Shown here piece after piece: positions 4,057 through 63,800 of a DNA stretch of 64,000 bases. The stretch lies in assembly GCA_021209875.1 (NCBI GenBank), contig JAGYVD010000002.1, positions 4,092,001 through 4,156,000 on the forward strand. Direction: 5' to 3'. Each line of letters begins with the position of its first letter. Positions within the stretch are counted from its first letter, which is position 1. The translations under genes were made by a program, and so were the position numbers. The DNA is from Rosellinia necatrix (Eukaryota; Ascomycota; Sordariomycetes; Xylariales; Xylariaceae). Below the pieces are notes generated by a model. The model was not told the origin of the DNA, did no database searches, and worked only from the letters and a program-made list of their open reading frames with translations.

Positions 4057-4814
4057 TACAGCTGCTCATATGTACATGGCCAGTCACCTTAGAGCTCTAA
4101 CAAGCTCGCTGATAGGCACTGGCGGCATTTTCGCCTCAACAGCGATTTAGTCTATTTCGAAGTGGATAAAAGCATACAGGTTAGGCGCATTAGGTTTATT
4201 GGTATCCGCTTGCTCAATAGCCTCAACATTGGCAACTAAACGTACTCTGTTTCACTCGCTAAGTGCCCGGATGCGCGGTTGAGCCATCGTCAACGAGCCA
4301 CTTTGCTGCCTTGAATAGAAGCTGTTGTGCATCATATGAAGAAAGTGCCGCAGCATACACACACGCCTTGCGGTGTCAGTGTATAAACCATCCACTTAAC
4401 GCCTCGGCCTCATTGGCCAGCGTTTTTCTATCACGCTCCTCGGGTCTTGGGGAAATATTGTTTGCTGGCCCGGTGGATGTTTTTTTGGCCCATTTAAGGC
4501 AAAACGCGGAACAGATGGATGCCCGGAGGGTACGAAAAGGTGCGATAGCTCAATGTTTCAATCGCCAACAAGGGAGTTTTATGGCCCAAGGAGACTTGCG
4601 CCTCTCGGAATAAAGCAAAAATATAAACGATACTATAAAAACGGTATATGCAACGAAGAAAAAGAGACAGCCTACGAATTACAAGGGTGAACGGGACGAA
4701 ATCCCCCCCCCCCTCCCCTTCCGAGAGCTACCCGAGAGACTCAAAAAATCTATATTTATTTTCCTTCCCCGACCCTGGACGCGACAGAGGAAAGCGCCCG
4801 TCGCGCGTTCACAC
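4057..4814. other. Intergenic between PAF1 and the catalase 3' end
   Basis: This spacer separates two convergent genes. Open frames up to about 116 codons occur but show no family motif, splice structure or codon bias that I can support. Bases around 4690-4720 contain a C-rich homopolymer run and the stretch probably holds the 3' UTRs of both genes. Confidence 0.55.
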
Positions 4815-7800
4815 TTAGGAATCCATGGGGAAGCGACCGGTGAACTTGAAGGTCCGGAGCCCGTCCTCAATGGCGCTGACGGCTTGGTCGAGGCTCGCGC
4901 CGACGAAGACGCCGGCGTCGGCGCTGCTGCTGTTGGCGGCGGCGGAGGCGAAGCCGGCGGCGAGCAGCATCTGGCTGGGGGGCGGCGCCGCCGAAGTACG
5001 CGACGGGCTTGCCGAAGAGGTAGGCGCTGTTGGCAATCTGGAGGGGCCGCATGGGCGGGTAGAGGGGCGAGAGGTGCGCGGGGGCGAAGACGCCGGCGGC
5101 GTCGGCGGCGGCGGTGACGACGACGGCGTCGAAGTCGGTGGCGTCCGCCAGCGAGTACGTCCTGTCGACGCCGCTGACCAGGCGCTCGGCTACGATGGTC
5201 GGGATCAGGCCGCTGGTGGCGAGCCGCTCCTTGAGCCGCTTGGCCTGGTCGAGGGCCGCGGACGAGCCATTGCTGGCCGCGGCGACGCTGGCGAGGATGC
5301 CGACCTTCAGCGTCGCGATGGTCGGCAGCGTGCCGGCGGTGATGGAGAGGCCCTGCGTCGTGTTGGTGTGGTAGTACGTCGGGTCGGGCGCGGGCGCACT
5401 CATGCCGAGCGCCGCGGCGACGCGCGCGGCGACGTCGTTGCTGACGCGGTTCAGCTGCCGCAGGATGCTCTCTTTCACGGCCGCGGACCGGAGGTTGCTC
5501 GTCTCGAAGCGGATGGCGTTGACGAGGAACTGCTGCTCGACCGGCTCCAACGAATTGTAGAATAGCCGTGGCTGCGTCCAGTGGTCGTCGAAGCTCGAGG
5601 ACAGCCCGCGCACGAGGTTGCCCCCCACGGTGCGGAACGGCGCGGTGAAGAAACCCCGCCCGGAGGTCTGGTTGGCCTGCCGGGGGAAGCCGCCGTTCAA
5701 CGTGTTGGGCGAGTCTGGGATGGCACGTCAGCTTACTTGTGTGGTTTCGAAGCCCGTGTGATCCCGATGCTTTTGGGCCCGGGGTAGGATCTAGAGACTT
5801 ACACGCCGCGGTGTTCTTATGAATGAATTGCTGGCCGGCGCCATCGCGGTTATTGTTGTGAATCGGGACAACGGGCCGGTTGATGGGCAGCTGCTCGAAG
5901 TTGGGACCTCCGTTCCGGTTCAATTGGGTATCGAGGTAGGAGAACATGCGTCCTTGTAGTAAGGGGTCCTCAGTCAAGTCAACGCCTCTTACGATATGCC
6001 CTGGTTGGAACTGTATGCGGCGCGTCAGCAGATGCCCTGACCTAGGAATCCATCCTACATGTTTACGCGACCTGCAATCGGACCACTTTCTCGTCCCACC
6101 ATCGAACATGTGGGATTTCATACAGAAGTGACTTGTTCGAGCGGCGAGAGCGCCGGATTTCTTCAGACCAGGGATTGACTTACCATAACCTGCTCCGTTT
6201 CGGCGAAGTAGTTAGTTGGGTTTGCATTCAACTTCATTACCCCGAGTTTTTGTAAAGGGGCAAATTCTTCCGGGACGATTTTGGTTGGGTCCAGCACGTC
6301 GATACCGAATGCCAGCGCTTGGTCTTCATCAAAGATCTGAACAGCCAGCTCCCATTCGGGGTGGTTGCCAGAAGAGATGGCGTCGAACAGGTCGGCACGG
6401 TGAGCATCAGCATTCTTGCCAGCGAGGATTTGAGCCTCCTCCCAGTAAAGGCTAGCCCGGCCCTGTTTTGTCTTCCAGTGCCATTTAACAAGCTTTGATT
6501 CACCATCATCTGTGACCAGACGGTAGGTATGAATTCCAAACCCATCCTGAACGATTAGTCAGTTGATGAAACAAGTCAAGTGCGTTGACGTCACGCACCA
6601 TATGACGGTAGCTTCGGGGAATTCCATAGCCAGCCATCGCCCAGAACAGCGTGTGAAGCGTGCTCGGCTGTTGGGAGAAGAAGTCCCATGCTGAGTCATG
6701 AGCGGAGGCCGCTTGCGGGATCTCGCTATCTGGGCTGGGTTTGACCGCGTGAATCAGGTCAGGAAAGCGGATGGCATCTTGACTGTCGGTCTGTTAGCCA
6801 TTGTAAATGAATGTATTAGATGAGGGCATCCGTGTTTGAGGTGAGGTCATATTCCTAATACGGCAAGACAACTGATGCTCGATTGGCCTATATGCATAAA
6901 AGGCGACAGATGGAGATTATACTTACATGAAAACTGTTGATCACCGGCGGGATTAGTATAATAATTCCATATCGAAGTTTGCCAGTCTAGTAAGGGAGCT
7001 AGCAAGGGTGGTTCATTGCCCTAAACAAGCAATCGGGTTTCAAGAGAAGCGAAACATATCTACTCACACTATAATCAAGAGGATTAGCAACTACTACTGT
7101 GCACGATTGTAGAAATGGGAACGGAAAACCGTAATAGGAATCCCCTGATGCGAAAGTGAGGCCGCTAGGTTTGTAAGGGAAGTAGATAACTTACCACTGG
7201 GATGTTATTTCCGACAATATCTTCATATGGAAATATTAGCAAGAGTCAGCACTGGGAATAGTAGGATTAGACCTCCGTACCAAAGTTGCCCTCATCAGTA
7301 TAGCTAAAATCTCAGTAAGCCACGAGAGTACATAGAAGTGTTCAAAAATTGTTGAGTTGTGCTTACAAACGCGTTGCGAACCCGTGGACATCCCGGGCAG
7401 TGTCGGCGCTTCCTCGGGAGCCTGCCACAGTAGAAAAACGAACAAAGACAGGCGTTTCTTTTCCAGCGCTCTTTAGGAAAGAAGCGGCGGTGATGTTATT
7501 CCAGTCGCCATAGCTCGTGAAAGTACCATGAGCTCCAGCGCCTCGAGCATGGACAGCTCGCTCTGGGACCTGCCAAATCTGTTAGCATATCCGGGCTGTT
7601 GGTAGTTTCTACGTCCCACTCATGTCTGTTTCTTCGGCGAGACCCCCGTTATTTGTTAGCTTGAGACAACTTACTCTCTCATGGTCGAAATGGGTGATCT
7701 TTTGGCGGAAAATAAAGTCCTCGAGAAGAGTCGGACCTCTATCCCCTGCTCTCAAGCTATCTTGATCGCTGATCTGCCCCCCAACATCGTCAGTTAGATA

Positions 7801-7956
7801 TCCGGAGCCATCATCAACGATGGCACCCGAGATAGGAGTCTGCGATGTATCAGCGGCTCGTGCGTGAAGATTCGCAGGATCCGCGAAGGGGCAACCAGTA
7901 GCAGAGACAAGTCCCTGAAGCCCTAAAAGGGTGGCAGAAATACTCGTATGTCTCAT
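4815..7956 (-). CDS. Secreted large-subunit catalase, with a C-terminal frameshift in this sequence
   Basis: This is a haem catalase of the large-subunit, secreted fungal type (H2O2 to water and O2). The ten-exon model is 7956-7675, 7569-7367, 7303-7281, 7220-7195, 7068 (one base), 6933-6927 (seven bases), 6782-6599, 6546-6184, 6010-5803 and 5714-4815. Residues 1-20 look like a signal peptide. The catalytic His is H101 in [13 protein letters not shown], followed by the distal GNN motif (about 173-175). The haem-ligand Tyr is Y388 in [10 protein letters not shown] flavodoxin-like C-terminal domain begins near [11 protein letters not shown]. Both tiny exons are needed to read IPVFFIQDA in frame. 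In exon 10 a run of six G (4977-4982, plus strand) puts the last ~50 codons out of frame: as written, translation ends at 4867 in an Arg-rich tail (714 residues). One G fewer would give about 731 residues ending FTGRFPMDS. This could be a sequencing error or a real mutation. Confidence 0.93.
6927..7068 (-). other. Micro-exon pair in catalase: 1-nt exon (7068) and 7-nt exon (6933-6927)
   Basis: On the minus strand the 26-nt exon ends CCAGTG before donor GTAAGT (7194-7189). A branch-like GCTAATCC precedes acceptor ATTATAG ending at 7069. One base T (7068) is followed at once by donor GTGAGT (7067-7062). The next intron has branch TACTAATCC and acceptor CAACAG ending at 6934. The exon TTTTCAT (6933-6927) is followed by donor GTAAGT (6926-6921), and the last intron has branch GGCTAAC and acceptor GACAG ending at 6783. 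Joined, the codons read Val-Phe-Phe-Ile-Gln, the invariant catalase sequence. Skipping the single T shifts the frame. Confidence 0.8.
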
Positions 7957-11209: not shown

Positions 11210-13023
11210 TTACATAGCAGTCAGCCGGCGTCTCCGTGGAGATCGCCGAAGCGAGCTATCCGCAGCACCGCCTTCCGCATCATCAAGAGCTAAGATCGAC
11301 AATATCGACTTCTCAACCTCGTCCCTCCCCCCCATTAGCTGATCCTCGTCCACCCAACCTATCTCAACCGCATAGCGTAGGATGTCGCTCGCGCTCTCGA
11401 ACCCGGGGACGCTCTCGTCGGCCTCCGGGTCAAGGTAAGACCACAGCTCTTTGGTCGCGCGCTTGAATGAATTGACTTCCCTCTTGGGCCCGCTGAAGTT
11501 TCGGACCATCCATTCGTACAGGTATGAAAGCCAGAGCACGTTTGTGTACGGCTCATGGATGGCCCATGTGATAGGACCATCGATGCCATCCGCATAGGGC
11601 GTCTTGTGGTCCTCAGGTGGGAGACACACGCGGTCCCCTCTTAGCAAGAACGATCTCATCTGCCGATATACGCGACACTGAGCTGCATGATCGCTTGTAA
11701 AGATGCCGAGGTCGCGTTCCAAGTCGTAGGCCACGGGCTCCGAGTCGTAGTCGGCCTGCGCCCGCGAGAGGCCGTAGTCCAGGATGGTTATTTCGAGACC
11801 GGAGAAGCCGAAATAGCAGGTCCGATCCCGTTCATCCTTTGGCACGGGCTCGCACACCTTCCGAACGCAGAGGTTCCCTTCATGGAGGTCTCGGTGCTAG
11901 GACTTATCAGTATAGATAGCATGTGGGTATGCCTCTGCGGCCAATGCTGAGTGACGCCTACCTCGAACCCTATTCTCGCCTCTGCGCGCGCGAGCGCGAT
12001 GGCAACGTGGAAGAATATATCCCATAGTTGGTCGGCCGTGGCGAGCTCGAAATCTTCAAGCGCCGTCCCCGCATCCCCCAACTCCACGACCAAAAACTTT
12101 GTATCATCAAGATACCGGCTAGGCGAGGGGTAGAATTGCAACCGGTCCGGATCTTGTCTTTTTAGTTTCTTATGGAAAGCTTGGTGCGTTTCGAGCAACT
12201 CCCGGCAGGCCTTTCCTTGGACTATGTATCGCTCTTTGTAGACCACGAACCCGGGGATATCGGCCACCCACTCGGAGATCTGGAGCTCGCCCAGCAAGTC
12301 GGATTCGCCGTGGGGTTCTTCGTCAACAAGCCCCGACCTTTGCTGTGTCTTGGTTTGCGGTTTTATCGGCGACGATAGCCGTATTACTTTTATGATGCTT
12401 GTGCCCCGATCGTTCGTCACTCGGTATACCTCTGCATAGGAGGCTTCTGCGATCTTGGCGATGTTGTCGCCCAGAGGGCAGATTTCAGCCCAGGAGAGGA
12501 CCTGTAGTTCCTTCGTCTGGTCGTGAAAAGAGAGTGCATGCTCGGTGACCGACGTCTCATCTATTTTCTCCTCTTCCTCTTCCTCTTCCTCTTCCTCTTC
12601 CTCTTCCTCTTCCTCTTCCTCTTCCTCTTCCTCTTCCTCTTCCTCCTCCTCCTCCCCCCCTTCCCCCTCTTCTGTCTCTAATTCCGGGATTGGCGGTGCA
12701 GATACAGGCTTGGGTGGCGTTAGAGGTTCAATAGCTTTGTCGCTGGGTAGGCCCAATGGCTCAGACTGCCTTGTTCTTCTTCGCAAAGGCAGGGGCGATT
12801 CTACCAGTTCTAGGTTTTCATCCTGTAGGTTAATCGAGGACAAGCCGTTCGTTAACTTTGAAACCAACTCGTCGTCGCCGTCATTGTCGAGAACATGTTC
12901 TTCTATTGGCACTGTCTTTGCTGTCCGTATAGGGGTCTGAGATAGCTCGACAAACAGGCGCCCGGCAGCCCGCGGCCTTTTGGCCTGCTTACCGTATCTC
13001 CGAGTAGTGTTTGGCTTTGACAT
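11210..13023 (-). CDS. Haspin-like serine/threonine kinase
   Basis: Haspin phosphorylates histone H3 Thr3 at mitotic centromeres and helps recruit the chromosomal passenger complex. Two exons, 13023-11962 and 11896-11210 (phase 0 junction), give 582 residues. The kinase domain fills the C-terminal two thirds: EASYAEVYRV is the glycine-rich loop, SIIKVIRL carries the ATP-binding Lys, HRDLHEGNL (catalytic Asp357) opens exon 2, and ITILDYGLSRA is the haspin version of the DFG motif. The sequence before LLETHQAFHK, with GFVVYKERYIVQGKACRE, matches haspin rather than ordinary kinases. The N-terminus starts MSKPNTTRRYGKQ, like the short basic N-termini of fungal haspins. The open frame extends upstream to 13185 but has no ATG there, which fixes 13023 as the start. 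A run of about 30 Glu lies between the N-terminal tail and the kinase domain. Confidence 0.92.
12567..12652 (-). repeat. Coding hexanucleotide repeat (poly-Glu) in haspin
   Basis: On the plus strand this is (CTCTTC)n followed by CTC triplets. Read on the minus strand it encodes about 30 consecutive Glu through alternating GAG and GAA. The unit is a multiple of three, so length changes keep the frame. Confidence 0.9.
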
Positions 13024-13485
13024 ATTCACATCTATTATTGGGATTCTTGGAGCGGTGTATCGTTCAGTATCTTGTTCACCATTTTGAGAATAATTGATCA
13101 ATGTGTATCGACGTTTGAGGGTCGAGTCAGATTTGTTTACTTCCCTCCTGAGACGTAACGGGCGACGCCCCAGCAACGGATTCACTGATGAGCCAATACC
13201 TGCTTACTCAGTAGGTATACGCCACGAACGACGCCACAGCTGACCCGGTTACCCCAATTCGTCATTACTGTAACACCAATGTGCTACCCAGTGAAATGTG
13301 GAGCCGCGCAGCACTGGACCCCAACTCCCGGGACTGCTCCATCCACCGTCAGCCGTCAGCTCCTAATTAATTCCTTGAGCTTTGTCTACGTGGTGGTCGA
13401 AGTATTGGAGTGCGTCTCTCTTCGCCCCCATTTCTCCTCAACCTCGTCGCGCAAGCAATTGCGTTCTCGCACGAGGTCCGTGAAG
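13024..13485. promoter_or_regulatory. Shared divergent promoter region, haspin / CCDC47-like gene
   Basis: The two start codons point away from each other and are 462 bp apart, so both promoters must lie here or overlap. I see no clear TATA box. The stretch nearest 13486 is rich in CT and TCTC runs, typical of fungal 5' UTRs. Confidence 0.5.
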
Positions 13486-57798: not shown

Positions 57799-60700
57799 TT
57801 ACCAACCTAGCACTTCAACGGCGCTGCGTGCCTCGGCTTGTGGCATAGGTTGGAAGCCAAGTTGCCGGGCTTGAGTTCCCCCCCGCAGGCGCCGCAGACC
57901 AACAGCCACCTTCCAGCCTTCCTCTTCTCCAAGAACGAATAAGAAACGTTTGCCTTCTTGGTCTTTGATGGTTGCACGCAACACATGTAAGCCGCGAGCT
58001 TTCCAATTGCCTGCTTGAGAGCCACCACGAGATGACGCAGTGCTGGATTCCATGTGAGGACCCATGCGGCAATCATCCTTACACGCGTCCAGCAGTTCAG
58101 TGAGGTAGGCATCGGCATCATCCCCCACCAGCAATTTCGGTTGACCGCGTGCTAAATACTTAAAGCGAGGGGCCGGTTTGTTCGTCACACGGGGAGATGC
58201 ATTAGAGTCGGTACTGGTATGCATAGGACACCACACCTCCATGGACTTGAGAGTCCAGGCTTTTACGTCCCACTCCCGCTGGGGAACACCTCGCACATCG
58301 TCATCGATGAAGAGGCCCTCGGTTGTAATGCGTAGGATTAGCCCGTCGGTAACGTGACCGACGCCAGATACCAGTTGAGATGCGGGCGTTTTAGAGAACT
58401 GGTTGAGAAAACCATAAACGGCTTTGATGACGATTTTGTCGGGGTCTTGCGTCGTGTATGGTCGTCGTACAGATGGTGGCGGCGTCGTTCTAGACGTAGA
58501 TTGAGATGGCGCGTATGATGACTCCGTAAAGATTGTCTCGCCGGATTTCCTGCGAGTATGCGATCTCGGTTGGTCATATGGACGATATGAATGTGTGTCA
58601 TCATCCGTGCCACGAAACGATTGGGCCGTCGGCGGTGGTGGGCGTCGAGTACTGGTAGAAGTCGCACTCGGAACCGTACTTGGGGCTGCACTCGGAGCCG
58701 TGCTTGGAGCGGCGCTTGAAGCGACACTCGGAGCGACGCTTGGGGCCGCAGTCGGTTTAGTCGGGGAGGGGGGTTGTGTAGGCGGCTTTCCGTTTGGCCA
58801 GGGGTTCGTCCGTTCACCCACAGATGAGAAGGCATATGTACTCTTTCGGGGAGTCGGTACCTCTCTCGCTTTTGCCTCTTCAGCCTCTCTAACTGCTTCG
58901 GCTTCCTTCAGCCGGGAGGCTTCCTGTTCTTTAGCCTCCCGTTCCATGGCCTCCTGCTCCCTAGCCTCTTTCTCCTTGGCTTCCCGCTCGTTGATCTCTC
59001 GTTCAAGTGTTTCTCGGAGCCTCTTCTCGCGTTCGAGCCGTTCACGAAGTACCCTCTCCCTTGCTTCCTGAAGCCTCTTCTCTCTTAGCTCCTTTTCCTT
59101 CTGCGCCTTTTCCCGTTGTTCACGCTCACGTTGCTCTTTCTCTCGTTGTTCCTGTTCACGGGCCGTTTTTTCTAATTTTTCCCTAGTTTCACGTTCGTAT
59201 TCCGCCTTTTCACGCGCCTCCTTCTCCAATCTTTGTCGAATTTCTCGCTCAAGCTCCTCTTTTTCGCGCGCTTCCTTTTCCCGCCTCTCCTGGGCAGCTT
59301 TTTCACGCTTAGCTCTCTCCTTTGCCTCCTTCTCACGTAGCTCTTTAATACGCCGAGCTATTTCTTCCTTCTTCCGTTGCTCGGCTTCTTTAGCTTTCCG
59401 TTCTTCCTCTTTCCGCCTTGTTTCCTCCCTCGCCCTCTCCCAAGAACCTTTGGTGGCCTCGACCTGTGGACGCTCTTGAGGACGTTCCGGGGGGGGTTCT
59501 ATGGTAGGTTCCTTGGCACGCTCGCTGGGCTGGCTGGGTGGCGCTTTGATTGGTTCACTGGGTGGAGCTACAGGGGGTTCCCTCGGAGTCTCTTTGCGTG
59601 GTTTCCTTGGGGGCTCTTGAAGGGATTCTATTGTAGATTCTCTGGGAGGCTCATTAGGGGGCTCGTTAGGGAGCTCACTAGGGGGTTCCTTAGGGGGATC
59701 CCTGAGAGGTCCTTTGAGTGATTCTGTTAGGGATTCCTTCCGAGGCTCCTTCCTAGGTTCCTTTGGCGGCCCCTTAGGAGGCCCCTTAGTAAGCTCCTTG
59801 CGTGATTTCTTGGACGGTTCCCTAGGTGGCTCCCTAGGTGGCTCCCTCGACGGCTCTCTCGGCGGCTCTTTAGGCGATTCTTTAGGCGGCTCTATAGGCG
59901 GCGCTATAGGCGGCTCCTTGGGTGGTTCCCTAGGGGGTTCCCTGGGGGCTTCTCTGAGTACCTCCCGAGAAACTTCTCTGGGAGCTTCCCTAGAAACCTC
60001 ATGTGAGCGCTCCTGAGGGCGCTCCCGAGGACGTTCCCGAGGCCGCTCTTGAGGTCGCTCCCGATGGCGTTCCCGGGGTCGCTCTTGGGGACGTTCCTGG
60101 GGGCGTTCCTGGGGACGTTCCTGGGGACGTTCCTGGGGACGTTCCTGGGGGCGTTCTTGGGGGCGTTCTTGGGGACGTTCTTGGGGACGCTCTTGGGGAC
60201 GTTCTTGGGGACGCTCTTGGGGACGTTCTTGGTGACATTCTTGGGGACGCTCTTGGGGACGCTCTTCAGGGTGCTCTTGCCAGGATGACTTCGATTTCCC
60301 GGATGCAGCACTATGCTGTGAAGGGCCAGAGCGGGGAGGCGGCGGGGTGCCATGTGGTGGTGGAGGTGGCGGCGGACCATCGGGATCGGGGGCTCTCGAG
60401 TGTGGTGGCGGGCCCGTGCTTGGATACGAGCCGCCTGAATGCCCATTATCCCCCGGATTGTAGCTCCACTGGTGCCTGGAGTCCCCTCTATTCGCCGACG
60501 CCGAACCACTTTCATTCTGTATCCTCCCCAAAGCCCAGGCTCCAATACCAACAGCAAGCACTAAAAGCAACATGCCCATATTCCCCATACCCTCGAAATG
60601 GCGATACCAGACCCTGAAAGCGGGGGCGAGACTCTGGAATAGTACGACTAGCACCAAGGCTGATGCAAAGCCAGCAGCGAAGCTGTTCACATTCGGCTTC

Positions 60701-60840
60701 AATGACGGCAGATAGAGAAATCCAGCACCGGAGGAATGTGGCGGTATTATAAAAATATCGTACTTCCCAGGTGGAAGATTTGGGCTCGACTTCCGCGGGT
60801 TTGTGCCATGCGGCGGCGGGGGAGGCGGTTGGTCGCCCAT
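57799..60840 (-). CDS. Large low-complexity membrane protein with ERPQ repeats and coiled coil
   Basis: Single open frame, 1013 residues. The order of parts is a Pro-rich N-terminus, two hydrophobic segments (about 52-70 and 87-105), a Pro/Gly/Ser linker, a perfect-looking array of the tetrapeptide ERPQ (12-bp units at about 60031-60262), then degenerate PREPPKEP-type tetrapeptides (to about 59500), a long charged EKEAREK-type coiled coil, Ser/Thr/Ala linkers with PSAAPST repeats, and a non-repetitive C-terminal domain (about residues 790-1013). That domain contains KIVIKAVYGFLNQFSKTPA, LRITTEGLFIDDDVRGVPQ, EWDVKAWTLKSMEVWCP and GLHVLRATIKDQEGKRFLF. I do not recognise a named family; similar long fungal proteins are annotated only as hypothetical. 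The repeats and coiled coil make homology searches unreliable unless the C-terminal domain is used alone. Confidence 0.75.
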   Translation of the reverse strand: MGDQPPPPPPHGTNPRKSSPNLPPGKYDIFIIPPHSSGAGFLYLPSLKPNVNSFAAGFASALVLVVLFQSLAPAFRVWYRHFEGMGNMGMLLLVLAVGIGAWALGRIQNESGSASANRGDSRHQWSYNPGDNGHSGGSYPSTGPPPHSRAPDPDGPPPPPPPHGTPPPPRSGPSQHSAASGKSKSSWQEHPEERPQERPQECHQERPQERPQERPQERPQERPQERPQERPQERPQERPQERPQERPQERPQERPRERHRERPQERPRERPRERPQERSHEVSREAPREVSREVLREAPREPPREPPKEPPIAPPIEPPKESPKEPPREPSREPPREPPREPSKKSRKELTKGPPKGPPKEPRKEPRKESLTESLKGPLRDPPKEPPSELPNEPPNEPPRESTIESLQEPPRKPRKETPREPPVAPPSEPIKAPPSQPSERAKEPTIEPPPERPQERPQVEATKGSWERAREETRRKEEERKAKEAEQRKKEEIARRIKELREKEAKERAKREKAAQERREKEAREKEELEREIRQRLEKEAREKAEYERETREKLEKTAREQEQREKEQREREQREKAQKEKELREKRLQEARERVLRERLEREKRLRETLEREINEREAKEKEAREQEAMEREAKEQEASRLKEAEAVREAEEAKAREVPTPRKSTYAFSSVGERTNPWPNGKPPTQPPSPTKPTAAPSVAPSVASSAAPSTAPSAAPSTVPSATSTSTRRPPPPTAQSFRGTDDDTHSYRPYDQPRSHTRRKSGETIFTESSYAPSQSTSRTTPPPSVRRPYTTQDPDKIVIKAVYGFLNQFSKTPASQLVSGVGHVTDGLILRITTEGLFIDDDVRGVPQREWDVKAWTLKSMEVWCPMHTSTDSNASPRVTNKPAPRFKYLARGQPKLLVGDDADAYLTELLDACKDDCRMGPHMESSTASSRGGSQAGNWKARGLHVLRATIKDQEGKRFLFVLGEEEGWKVAVGLRRLRGGTQARQLGFQPMPQAEARSAVEVLGW
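60031..60262 (-). repeat. 12-bp coding repeats encoding ERPQ
   Basis: About 17-19 tandem 12-bp units; on the plus strand they read like GGGGACGTTCTT with mostly silent differences. Nucleotide identity between neighbouring units is high, so the array probably grows or shrinks by slippage or unequal exchange without breaking the frame. Confidence 0.9.
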
Positions 60841-63800
60841 GATGGCAATTCGGCCACTACGAAACCAATGCTCTCTGTATTGGTTCTAATTAAGCGCCCA
60901 GTATGCGGTGCGACGTATCTTGACGATGTGGTAAACGGCTCTCACGGGTCCTAGTTATCTGTGTAACGGAATCGAGGGTATTATCGAGAAGCCATGAGGA
61001 GCCAGGACATCGTCGGGAGGTGCTCGTGCTGTTGGTCGAGTCAGTCGGGTTTCTTTTTTCCTTTTTCTTTTTTCTTTTTTTCCCTTCTTTTCTTTTTCAA
61101 TATTTCATTCTAATATGGAGGGGCAAAGTCGCCAAAGGGGTCAGTCAGGTAGTGCTGTTACTTACTTTGAAAGCGAACGAGAAGAAGTGCAAGTTAGGCT
61201 AGAATGTGAATGCAAGAGCCGATGCCGCAAAACTCTACGGGGTATGCCCACAAGGCAGCAACGGCAAACGCAAGAAATGATATACACAAAAAAAGTAAGT
61301 CGGCTGCCACGGGTGGTTAAAGAATCCGGGTTGTAAAAAGAGGCTTCCTGCGGGTATCGAGATTGTGACTTGTGCACTTTTGGCGGGAGGTGGGAGGTGG
61401 GTGGATAGATAGATGGGATGGACCTGAGGGGGGGTTATTTACACAAACGGGGCGGTATCAGCACCTCTTCACTACCGAGCCGTTAGCTAAGCAAATGGGT
61501 ATCCAATTGGATGGCTCGGATCGCTCGAACCGATCAACAAGGACACGAACGCAATTTGCGTTCGCTCGCTCGACCAAGACCCCAAAAGAAGAAGTGCTGG
61601 GTGTGGTGTGGCTGCGCATTCACTAGGTAGGTTAGGTATGTTTACACTAGATTAAAGCAGGCCGAAAGTAGGCAGCAGATTTGGGGAAGGAAAAAAAATT
61701 GTGGACCGAATTTGTTGACGCCAAGCGCAACCAGCAATCAGAGAAACCTTAAGCTCCTGCAGGACTGGCGCCACTGTGACCAGTGACAGCTTAAGCTCAT
61801 GCAGATATCCACACAATCCGCCAATTAGGACTGCACAATAGCTCTTAGCGGGAACACGTAGCGGAGACACTTACCCAGCATCAGAACCATGGCCAAAAAC
61901 ATCTAAACGTCTTGGGCAGCAACAAACCGTCCAGTCCAGCCACCTTCCGCCTACCTACATCCGCCTACTGTGCATACCTAGGTTAGGTATGTGAATAGAG
62001 CGAGCACCACGCTACCTATCTAGGTACACATGGCCTCCAGGCCATCTACACTAAATACCAAGTGAATATTAGGTCGTACCTACTGTCTTGCCGTGCTTGG
62101 TCAGATATGCAGTGAAGATAGCGAGGTCCCAATCTCCAGCGATTACCTTCCTCACGAATATATGGAGCCTTCAAATTTGATAGTTGATTCTGAACTGATC
62201 GTCGTTATCAAATTCCGAATGCGAAATAGCTGTGTAGACTATGAACTGTGACTAGAGGTTTCATCGCAGCTTGGAGAGTAGATCGCAAAAGCGATCACCA
62301 TTAGTATGTAAACATATCTGCTCCCCCTCGCGATGACATAACCCAATCACTCCTCCCCCGGGCTGCCCTGGGCTATCTGACCCAGCCTACCCATATTTTG
62401 AGGGCCATGGGAGGGGGCGGGGGGCTTTTTACACTAGATAGCGGGGGACCAATGCCAGCCAAACAAGTCGCAAGCAAGTCATGGCAACCACAGTATCGTC
62501 CGGCATCTTGGCCGTTGAGTGGCCCAAATCGTACCACAACAGCCAGGAGAAGGAAACGTCAAAGAAACGAACGACGATGGAAAGCACCCTCACTTTGTCC
62601 GGGCCGACATCCCACCATCGCAAAAATCCACGAGAATATCAATTTTCCCAGCTCCGATCGCGGATCTCGCCACTATTCAGGGGTCTGATCTGGGATTTAC
62701 CGTATTATGGTATGATGATCCCTCCAGGAATCGCTGAACGAAATCTCCAACCACCACATAGGCATATCTTCCATACTTTCCTATCCTCGATGGAGACCAT
62801 TGCAATGGAAGTGAGACATATAGATTTGAAGAAGAAGAATCCAATTGATACTTAATTAAAGATAATTAGAATCGCTAGATAAGGGAACAAGTAGTTCACT
62901 TGTTCAACCCCATACTTCTCCAATTCGTGTTGTCTAAGACACCTGCGGTTGCTAGGCAACGCCTCCGTAGAATCAAATACCAAGACCCACTACACACATA
63001 CAACAATCAGCATTCGGTAGATTCCCTGGAATAGGATAAAAACATGTTACCCAGACCACAGTCGCATCTGTTCAGTATACATCAGACGAGGCTAAAAGAA
63101 AGTAGAGGGAGGGCATGAATCGAATTGGACTGAGGTATCATTGGGCTGACGCCATACATAAATGTGTCCGCGCCACCTGCGTGCTGCGTGATGGGACGGC
63201 CCGCGAAGTTCCATGCGAATTGGGGTAGTGTCTTATGTATGCACGGGTAGTCAATTTACATGTGAAGCTGGCACAAGTGCATTTTTTGGTCTGTGTTTTA
63301 TGACCCCCGTAAAGGGGACTTATCCTTCCACCATTATGTAGTGTACGATTGGAGCTGTCTGAGGGGAGGCCGCCTATAGAGATGAAGATGTTAACGTTGC
63401 TACGAACCAACAAGACAGAGAATCGTGCAACCTATGATGACTATTGCCCACCGTGTGATAATGTTTCCCTAATTCCTTATCACCTGCATATGTATAATGC
63501 GCGCGGAGGGCGCACCCATTGGGCATGCCATAGCTAGAATCGCGAAGCGATGGGCAGTAAACTTATCCAATATCTGCTGGGCATTTCCATATGGCTGCCA
63601 GGACCAAAACAAGGGATCAAAACAAGGTCTTTCTACATATTCGGTAAACAGTATCGCAGTGTGATGCGTGTATACTCTCGAAGGCGGTGTCGAATCATAC
63701 AGGGTGCCTTCACGGACATCTTGAACGCAAAATTTGGGCTTCGAAACGGTAGTTTATACTGACACGCTGTTGAGATGACTGAGTAATTGGCATGCCCTTG

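Follow-up and report, generated by a model that had tools for sequence, protein, structure and literature searches.

A probable single-nucleotide exon paired with a seven-nucleotide exon in a secreted catalase gene of Rosellinia necatrix

How can a catalase gene encode the residues Phe-Phe-Ile when their codons are divided by three ordinary GT-AG introns? The gene lies in a 64,000-nucleotide stretch of the Rosellinia necatrix genome, referred to here as the window, and the three codons would be made up of a single T (T7068), the seven bases TTTTCAT and the T that follows them in the next exon. The question raised by the locus is whether the spliceosome joins one base, on its own, into the message. 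The splice signals and the gene models of relatives make it very probable that T7068 is spliced in as a one-base exon of the catalase gene, ahead of the 7-nt exon. The features concerned are as follows.

4812..7956, minus strand: gene for a large-subunit secreted catalase (CatB/CAT-3 type) with 10 putative exons, from the exon model, Pfam domains and relatives
7195..7220, minus strand: putative exon 4, 26 nt, encoding DIVGNNIPV (the D split with exon 3) and ending CCAGTG at phase 0
7069..7194, minus strand: putative intron 4, 126 nt, GTAAGT...ATTATAG, branch site CTAAT at 7087-7083
7068, minus strand: predicted exon 5, a single T, base 1 of the first Phe codon in V-F-F-I, from the splice-path search and the reading frame
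6934..7067, minus strand: putative intron 5, 134 nt, GTGAGT...CAACAG, branch site CTAAT (in TACTAATCC) at 6956-6952
6927..6933, minus strand: predicted exon 6, the 7-nt microexon TTTTCAT, from the sequence and the readings in six relatives
6783..6926, minus strand: putative intron 6, 144 nt, GTAAGT...GACAG, branch site CTAAC at 6797-6793
6599..6782, minus strand: putative exon 7, beginning T CAA GAT GCC (base 3 of Ile, then QDA)

In the exon model the lengths run, 5' to 3', 282, 203, 23, 26, 1, 7, 184, 363, 208 and 903 nt. The product matched Catalase (PF00199, 554.9 bits), Catalase-rel (PF06628, 70.6) and Catalase_C (PF18011, 96.2), all above the Pfam cut-offs, and judged by its domains and relatives it is a large-subunit fungal catalase of the CatB/CAT-3 type, secreted. 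The top six of the best 120 relatives are catalases of Xylaria, Nemania and a Xylariaceae species, with 84-86% identity, which places the fungus in or near the Xylariaceae. Elsewhere in the window, also on the minus strand, we noted a 1028-aa open frame rich in ERPQ-type repeats and charged stretches (57799-60885) and another in which a long run of glutamates is followed by a region that looks kinase-like by eye (11788-13203).

The single-nucleotide site reads ATTATAG/T/GTGAGT (7075-7062, minus strand; slashes mark splice junctions), with one base between AG and GT. A preliminary description of this locus had placed exon 7220-7195, T7068 and TTTTCAT at 6933-6927 between these splice sites, and the coordinates and letters are as it gave them. 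It had also held that the frame depends on the T, which translation confirmed: a model without T7068 is frameshifted, loses the FFI motif and reaches a stop 11 residues past the V. Each of introns 4, 5 and 6 begins with a consensus donor, carries a branch site of the form CTAAY and ends in AG, and the distance from the second A of the branch site to the last base of the AG is 15, 19 and 11 nt respectively. Intron 6 has a second candidate branch site, CTAAT at 6819-6815, and its junction with exon 7 is GACAG/TCAAGATG, the first exonic base being 6782. At the one-base exon the T supplies no G at the donor -1 position.

We searched the splice paths depth-first, allowing GT/GC..AG introns of at least 30 nt and up to four introns. 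P-V-F-F-I-Q-D-A had one solution, which passes through T7068, in agreement with the earlier claim that only one combination gives VFFIQD. Other in-frame paths exist, for example to PVVIFIQDA and PVTDSQDA; both change the motif. In a nested search any one GT..AG intron of at least 45 nt was taken out first and the product was then spliced, and the solutions that encode the motif yielded identical mature exons only.

Could such a site occur by chance? AG-N-GT is found once in 7194-6934, consistent with the single AG-T-GT reported in the preliminary description, but this is weak evidence by itself, since 2184 of 20000 sequences made from the stretch by dinucleotide shuffling contain AG-T-GT. The longer AGTGTRNGT arose in 44 of 20000 shuffles, and AGTGTRNGT together with a branch site and YAG in 0 of 20000. 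Across the genome (49.1 Mb, 12 contigs, both strands) the pattern CTAAY-N(4-28)-YAG-N-GTRAGT occurs at 53 sites, and the reversed control pattern at 31; 53 sites over 98.2 Mb of strand correspond to about 1.4e-4 per 261 nt. The full local splice signal at T7068 exceeds chance. The other 52 sites were scored for coding flanks, with a mark of 12 required on both sides. None of the 52 passed, whereas 5 of 60 random controls did, and the sites showed no enrichment. This score is a weak one, the catalase site itself having 1.3 and 6.7. The top three of the 52 (L059, L012 and L044) do not look like single-nucleotide exons, each site lying within an open reading frame.

The only copy in the genome of the 261-nt stretch is itself, by a search that skips simple repeats and very common words, and with no second copy found we ruled out an introner or a repeated sister stwintron. 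Sister copies in the genome are a trait of the repeated kind of stwintron only. No special RNA structure was found over 6770-7225 (z = +1.41; 92 of 100 shuffled sequences gave a fold as good or better). Within the introns there are one 22-nt direct pair of repeats (73%) and one 13-nt inverted pair (92%), which we took as chance. Three other catalase loci were found in the genome; with 22-54% identity in aligned pieces they were too distant to serve as comparators. In one of them, L001 (C2:1996319), an ordinary phase-1 intron interrupts VFFIQD one codon downstream, GTC TTC T/GTGAGT...ACAG/TC ATC, at about 2367-2277, with the donor T/GTGAGT as at T7068.

The relatives examined were the best-scoring 120 of 7999 proteins, taken as the peptides of gene models, not as genomic DNA. 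FFIQDA is absent from 33 of these 120 models and present in 87, two of which (P0051 and P0106) have other errors just upstream. We built a tree from 119 relatives and the query with the microexon region masked, P0112, which has FFIQDA, having been dropped for length. The 33 models without FFIQDA and the query formed one clade with a support of 0.963, and 0 of the 86 others fell inside it. The query shares 72-86% identity with the 33 members, which are labelled Xylaria, Nemania, Astrocystis, Ustulina and Xylariaceae sp., with one Hypoxylon argillaceum. That last model, P0041, sits within the Xylaria-Nemania clade with the same model error, and its label or strain may be wrong.

Is the gap in these models a property of the enzymes or of the models? 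At 296 positions kept in at least 97% of the 86, the median retention in the clade was 33 of 33 models, while F179, F180 and I181 were retained in 1, 2 and 2 of 33. The next lowest conserved position, 170, was present in 19 of 33, and nearby positions in exons 3, 4 and 7 were missing from about a third of the 33. The model failure is centred on FFI and is not confined to it. The solved homologue 4aue has VFFIQDA at the matching place. By this comparison of sequences, the public models of the clade are wrong at the F-F-I residues in 33 of the 33 seen.

The errors themselves carry information about the exons that were missed. We sorted the 33 models by hand into error classes and recounted the simple classes; 27 of the 33 were decoded, while P0008, P0012, P0014, P0021, P0040 and P0048 remained outside the decoding. 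Ten read PVxxSQDA, four read PVVNAI and five fuse exon 2 to exon 7 (TRFQDA or TRLQDA). In six clade models the reading suits an exon of 7 nt but not one of 8 nt, though some of these readings could have other sources. P0009 and P0016 read GNF-VFIQDA, as would be expected if a G left over from exon 3 were joined to the seven bases TNTTYAT. P0047 (STVFIQDA) and P0058 (SIVFIQDA) fit read-through of the end of intron 5, where an 8-nt exon would instead give (K/Q/E)FFIQDA. PVSSYA in P0015 fits GTG + TCTTCAT + AT GCC, and NSFYVNA in P0070 fits AACAG/TTTTTAT/GTAA; an 8-nt exon fits neither. Two further models, again as decoded from their peptides, fit a single T before GTAAGT: P0004 and P0035 read PVCNQDA, consistent with AG/TGYAA/GT, the form that AG/T/GTAAGT takes when a model places its donor four bases too far on. 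The same misuse at the query's AG/T/GTGAGT would give PVCDQDA. P0014, one of the six outside the decoding, reads GNF-VQDA and would need a one-base exon or a shifted acceptor. The unique splice path, the 33 clade models without FFIQDA and the six that fit a 7-nt exon together support the 1-nt plus 7-nt reading put forward in the preliminary description.

The most serious alternative is that a T has been lost from the TTTT run. The true exon would then be 8 nt long (TTTTTCAT), its missing base being due to a sequencing error or a recent mutation, and the AG-T-GT would be coincidental. It is the most serious because the last exon of the same catalase gene shows a one-base frame change, at this feature:

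4977..4982, minus strand: C run where the frame shifts by one base in the last catalase exon, from the open reading frames and the conserved tail

Past this run the upstream frame enters low-complexity Arg/Gln sequence, and the conserved C-terminal tail, present in 112 of the best 120 relatives, continues in another frame. The change falls about 54 codons before the end of the catalase and is either an assembly error or a damaged allele. A TTTT run is likewise a place prone to indels. Against this, an internal acceptor, donor and branch site would be expected so rarely in 261 nt, at the frequency given above, that coincidence is a poor account of them, and the window's long open reading frames, of 980, 1028 and 1796 aa, show no break. 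Loss of a T in the query assembly is further disfavoured because the errors of the six relatives, from separate genomes, fit a 7-nt exon. As decoded, the relatives' 7-nt exons also differ synonymously among themselves (TCTTCAT, TTTTTAT). We therefore consider a lost T improbable.

A second alternative takes the commonest error class at face value. Two acceptors stand in tandem ahead of exon 7, 8 nt from each other (6792-6783, minus strand), and the upstream AG (6792-6791) is in frame. If both microexons were skipped and introns 4-6 removed as one through this AG, the product would read PVTDSQDA, which the splice-path search returned as the window's own counterpart of PVxxSQDA. The path is in frame, the ten clade models of the form PVxxSQDA match it, being what an AG 8 nt ahead of the exon 7 acceptor would give, and the CTAAT at 6819-6815 could serve that AG. 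The residues before the S, however, vary from species to species (TG, IY, TH, PN, VR, TS, TN, VN, MI) and look like intron, whereas 87 of 87 other models have FFI, and the 7-nt exon seems to be kept in the relatives. The upstream AG also adjoins the better-placed branch site, CTAAC, and an AG directly after a branch site is normally too near for use with that branch site. Skipping of the pair as the normal route is, on this evidence, very unlikely.

Equally little speaks for a donor used 4 nt downstream, which would remove the need for a 1-nt exon. The junction GTGGTAA/GTTATC would give PVVIFIQDA and TTTTCATGTAA/GTATAA would give PVFSCNQDA, both in frame. In each case a GTAAGT donor would be bypassed for a poorer one, and a residue would be inserted into the motif and Phe replaced. 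Neither peptide occurs in any of the 120 relatives' models, and we give this route scant credence. Programmed frameshifting at the TTTT, restoring the frame in translation with no help from splicing, is hardly credible: the T run is in the right place, but a -1 slip would have to re-pair the Phe-tRNA on GTT and be nearly complete, and to our knowledge the site is not a known slippery heptamer.

If T7068 is a one-base exon, how would it be spliced? The single-T exon would be constitutive, and introns 4 and 5 would be excised in succession, each defined as an intron by a donor, a branch site and an acceptor of its own. What suggests successive removal is the contact between the acceptor of intron 4 and the donor of intron 5, which could not both be occupied together. 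The order would be immaterial to the mRNA: removal of intron 4 first would leave GTGT/GTGAGT, and removal of intron 5 first would leave ATAG/TTTTTCAT.

The preliminary description had offered nested stwintrons as the route, and this did not survive. A [D1,2] stwintron is one whose outer donor is interrupted between G1 and T2 by the internal intron, with no exon left, as set out in the portions of two reports consulted (PMC12403724, PMC9024468). In the catalase the internal intron would instead sit one exonic base before an intact donor. The composite donor G7195+T7068 was included in the nested enumeration, and no path through it gives PVFFIQDA. The catalase introns thus fall outside the definition, and we rejected their identification as a [D1,2] stwintron. 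The stwintrons described from the Hypoxylaceae and Xylariaceae come from the same order and partly the same family, and their two introns too are excised successively, according to the parts of those reports consulted. In the sections available of the stwintron literature searched for each term, catalase and microexon were absent.

Closer precedents are the single-nucleotide exons of other nuclear genes, of which the literature searched held three: APC11, VPS55 and CYP621A. The plant gene APC11 has a single-nucleotide exon whose authors, in the text consulted, have the introns recognised one by one, across the intron (PMC4674806). The available part of a later study describes one-nucleotide microexons of APC11 and VPS55 throughout the land plants, the GTRAGT donor being conserved in VPS55, and also has a rice gene with two adjacent microexons of 5 and 12 nt (PMC8831610). 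Like the proposed catalase exon, those of APC11 and VPS55 are spliceosomal, essential to the frame and overlooked by annotation, and they are long conserved (PMC4674806, PMC8831610, as far as the consulted portions go); the downstream donor in VPS55 is GTRAGT, as at T7068 (PMC8831610). They differ in having been proven by RT-PCR and RNA-seq and, in the consulted parts of both papers, in having no adjoining 7-nt exon; the catalase exon is predicted from sequence. The preliminary description had named APC11 as its precedent, which is sound as far as it goes, although VPS55 (PMC8831610) and CYP621A (PMC12940212) widen the company beyond that one gene.

The nearest of these is the Fusarium CYP621A exon reported by Nelson and Syed in February 2026 (PMC12940212). 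By the paper's own count it is the second example, and the first from a fungus; VPS55 goes unmentioned in the part consulted. As proposed for the catalase, one base of a fungal nuclear gene lies between AG and GT and is essential to the frame in a conserved motif; orthologues in many species carry the exon, public models are wrong, and archive reads confirm it (PMC12940212, consulted in part). The CYP621A exon is a G, which suits the consensus on both sides, in an interval of 139 nt in F. graminearum (PMC12940212, same portion). The proposed catalase exon is a T instead, its interval measures 261 nt, each of the two introns has its own branch site, and a 7-nt exon follows. The available text of the CYP621A paper has its authors proposing that a base was lost from an exon and that a cryptic one-base exon in the adjacent intron came to the rescue (PMC12940212).

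More distant comparisons are the 20-nt microexon of Trichoderma Xlr2, at first overlooked by annotation (PMC11121469), and the mitochondrial one-base exons of placozoan cox1 (PMC5436844) and between the group II introns of fungal rnl (PMC12308204), all cited from the parts consulted. The Xlr2 microexon is an alternatively spliced switch in the text seen, whereas the catalase exons of 1 and 7 nt are presumably constitutive. Catalase T7068 is probably a further nuclear exon of one nucleotide, the second from a fungus by the literature searched, and it comes with a 7-nt exon as its partner. We found no earlier publication of the catalase microexon case in the literature searched. What is new beside the precedents is the T base, the second microexon of 7 nt and the presumed clade-wide range; long conservation is not in itself new.

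A single origin, in an ancestor of the Xylaria-Nemania clade, seems likely, and the arrangement would have been retained because the F-F-I motif would tolerate no change. In keeping with the proposal made for CYP621A, an 8-nt exon could have lost one T and an intronic AG-T-GT replaced the base, or a later intron could have been inserted one base ahead of an existing donor. The Hypoxylon texense model (P0051) reads GNF-VFFIQDA, which fits an exon continuous through this place, and for that reason the introns here may be gains on the Xylariaceae side.

A more ambitious reading, which we regard as unlikely, is that the 1+7-nt pair is both old in the Xylaria-Nemania clade (Xylaria, Nemania, Astrocystis, Ustulina) and regulatory, through skipping and the order of intron removal. 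Skipping the pair via the tandem acceptor would give an in-frame, full-length and probably inactive catalase (PVxxSQDA). Skipping the T alone would send the transcript to decay, and enzyme output would be set by the order in which the introns are removed.

The constitutive one-base exon, if confirmed, would extend single-nucleotide exons to one of the major antioxidant enzymes, and a second microexon would lie 134 nt from it. The exon base, a T, gives the splice sites no help, and many fungal species would serve to test how the spliceosome handles an acceptor and a donor that touch. Since the public catalase models seen for the clade are wrong at the F-F-I residues, failure is to be expected of enzymes expressed from them.
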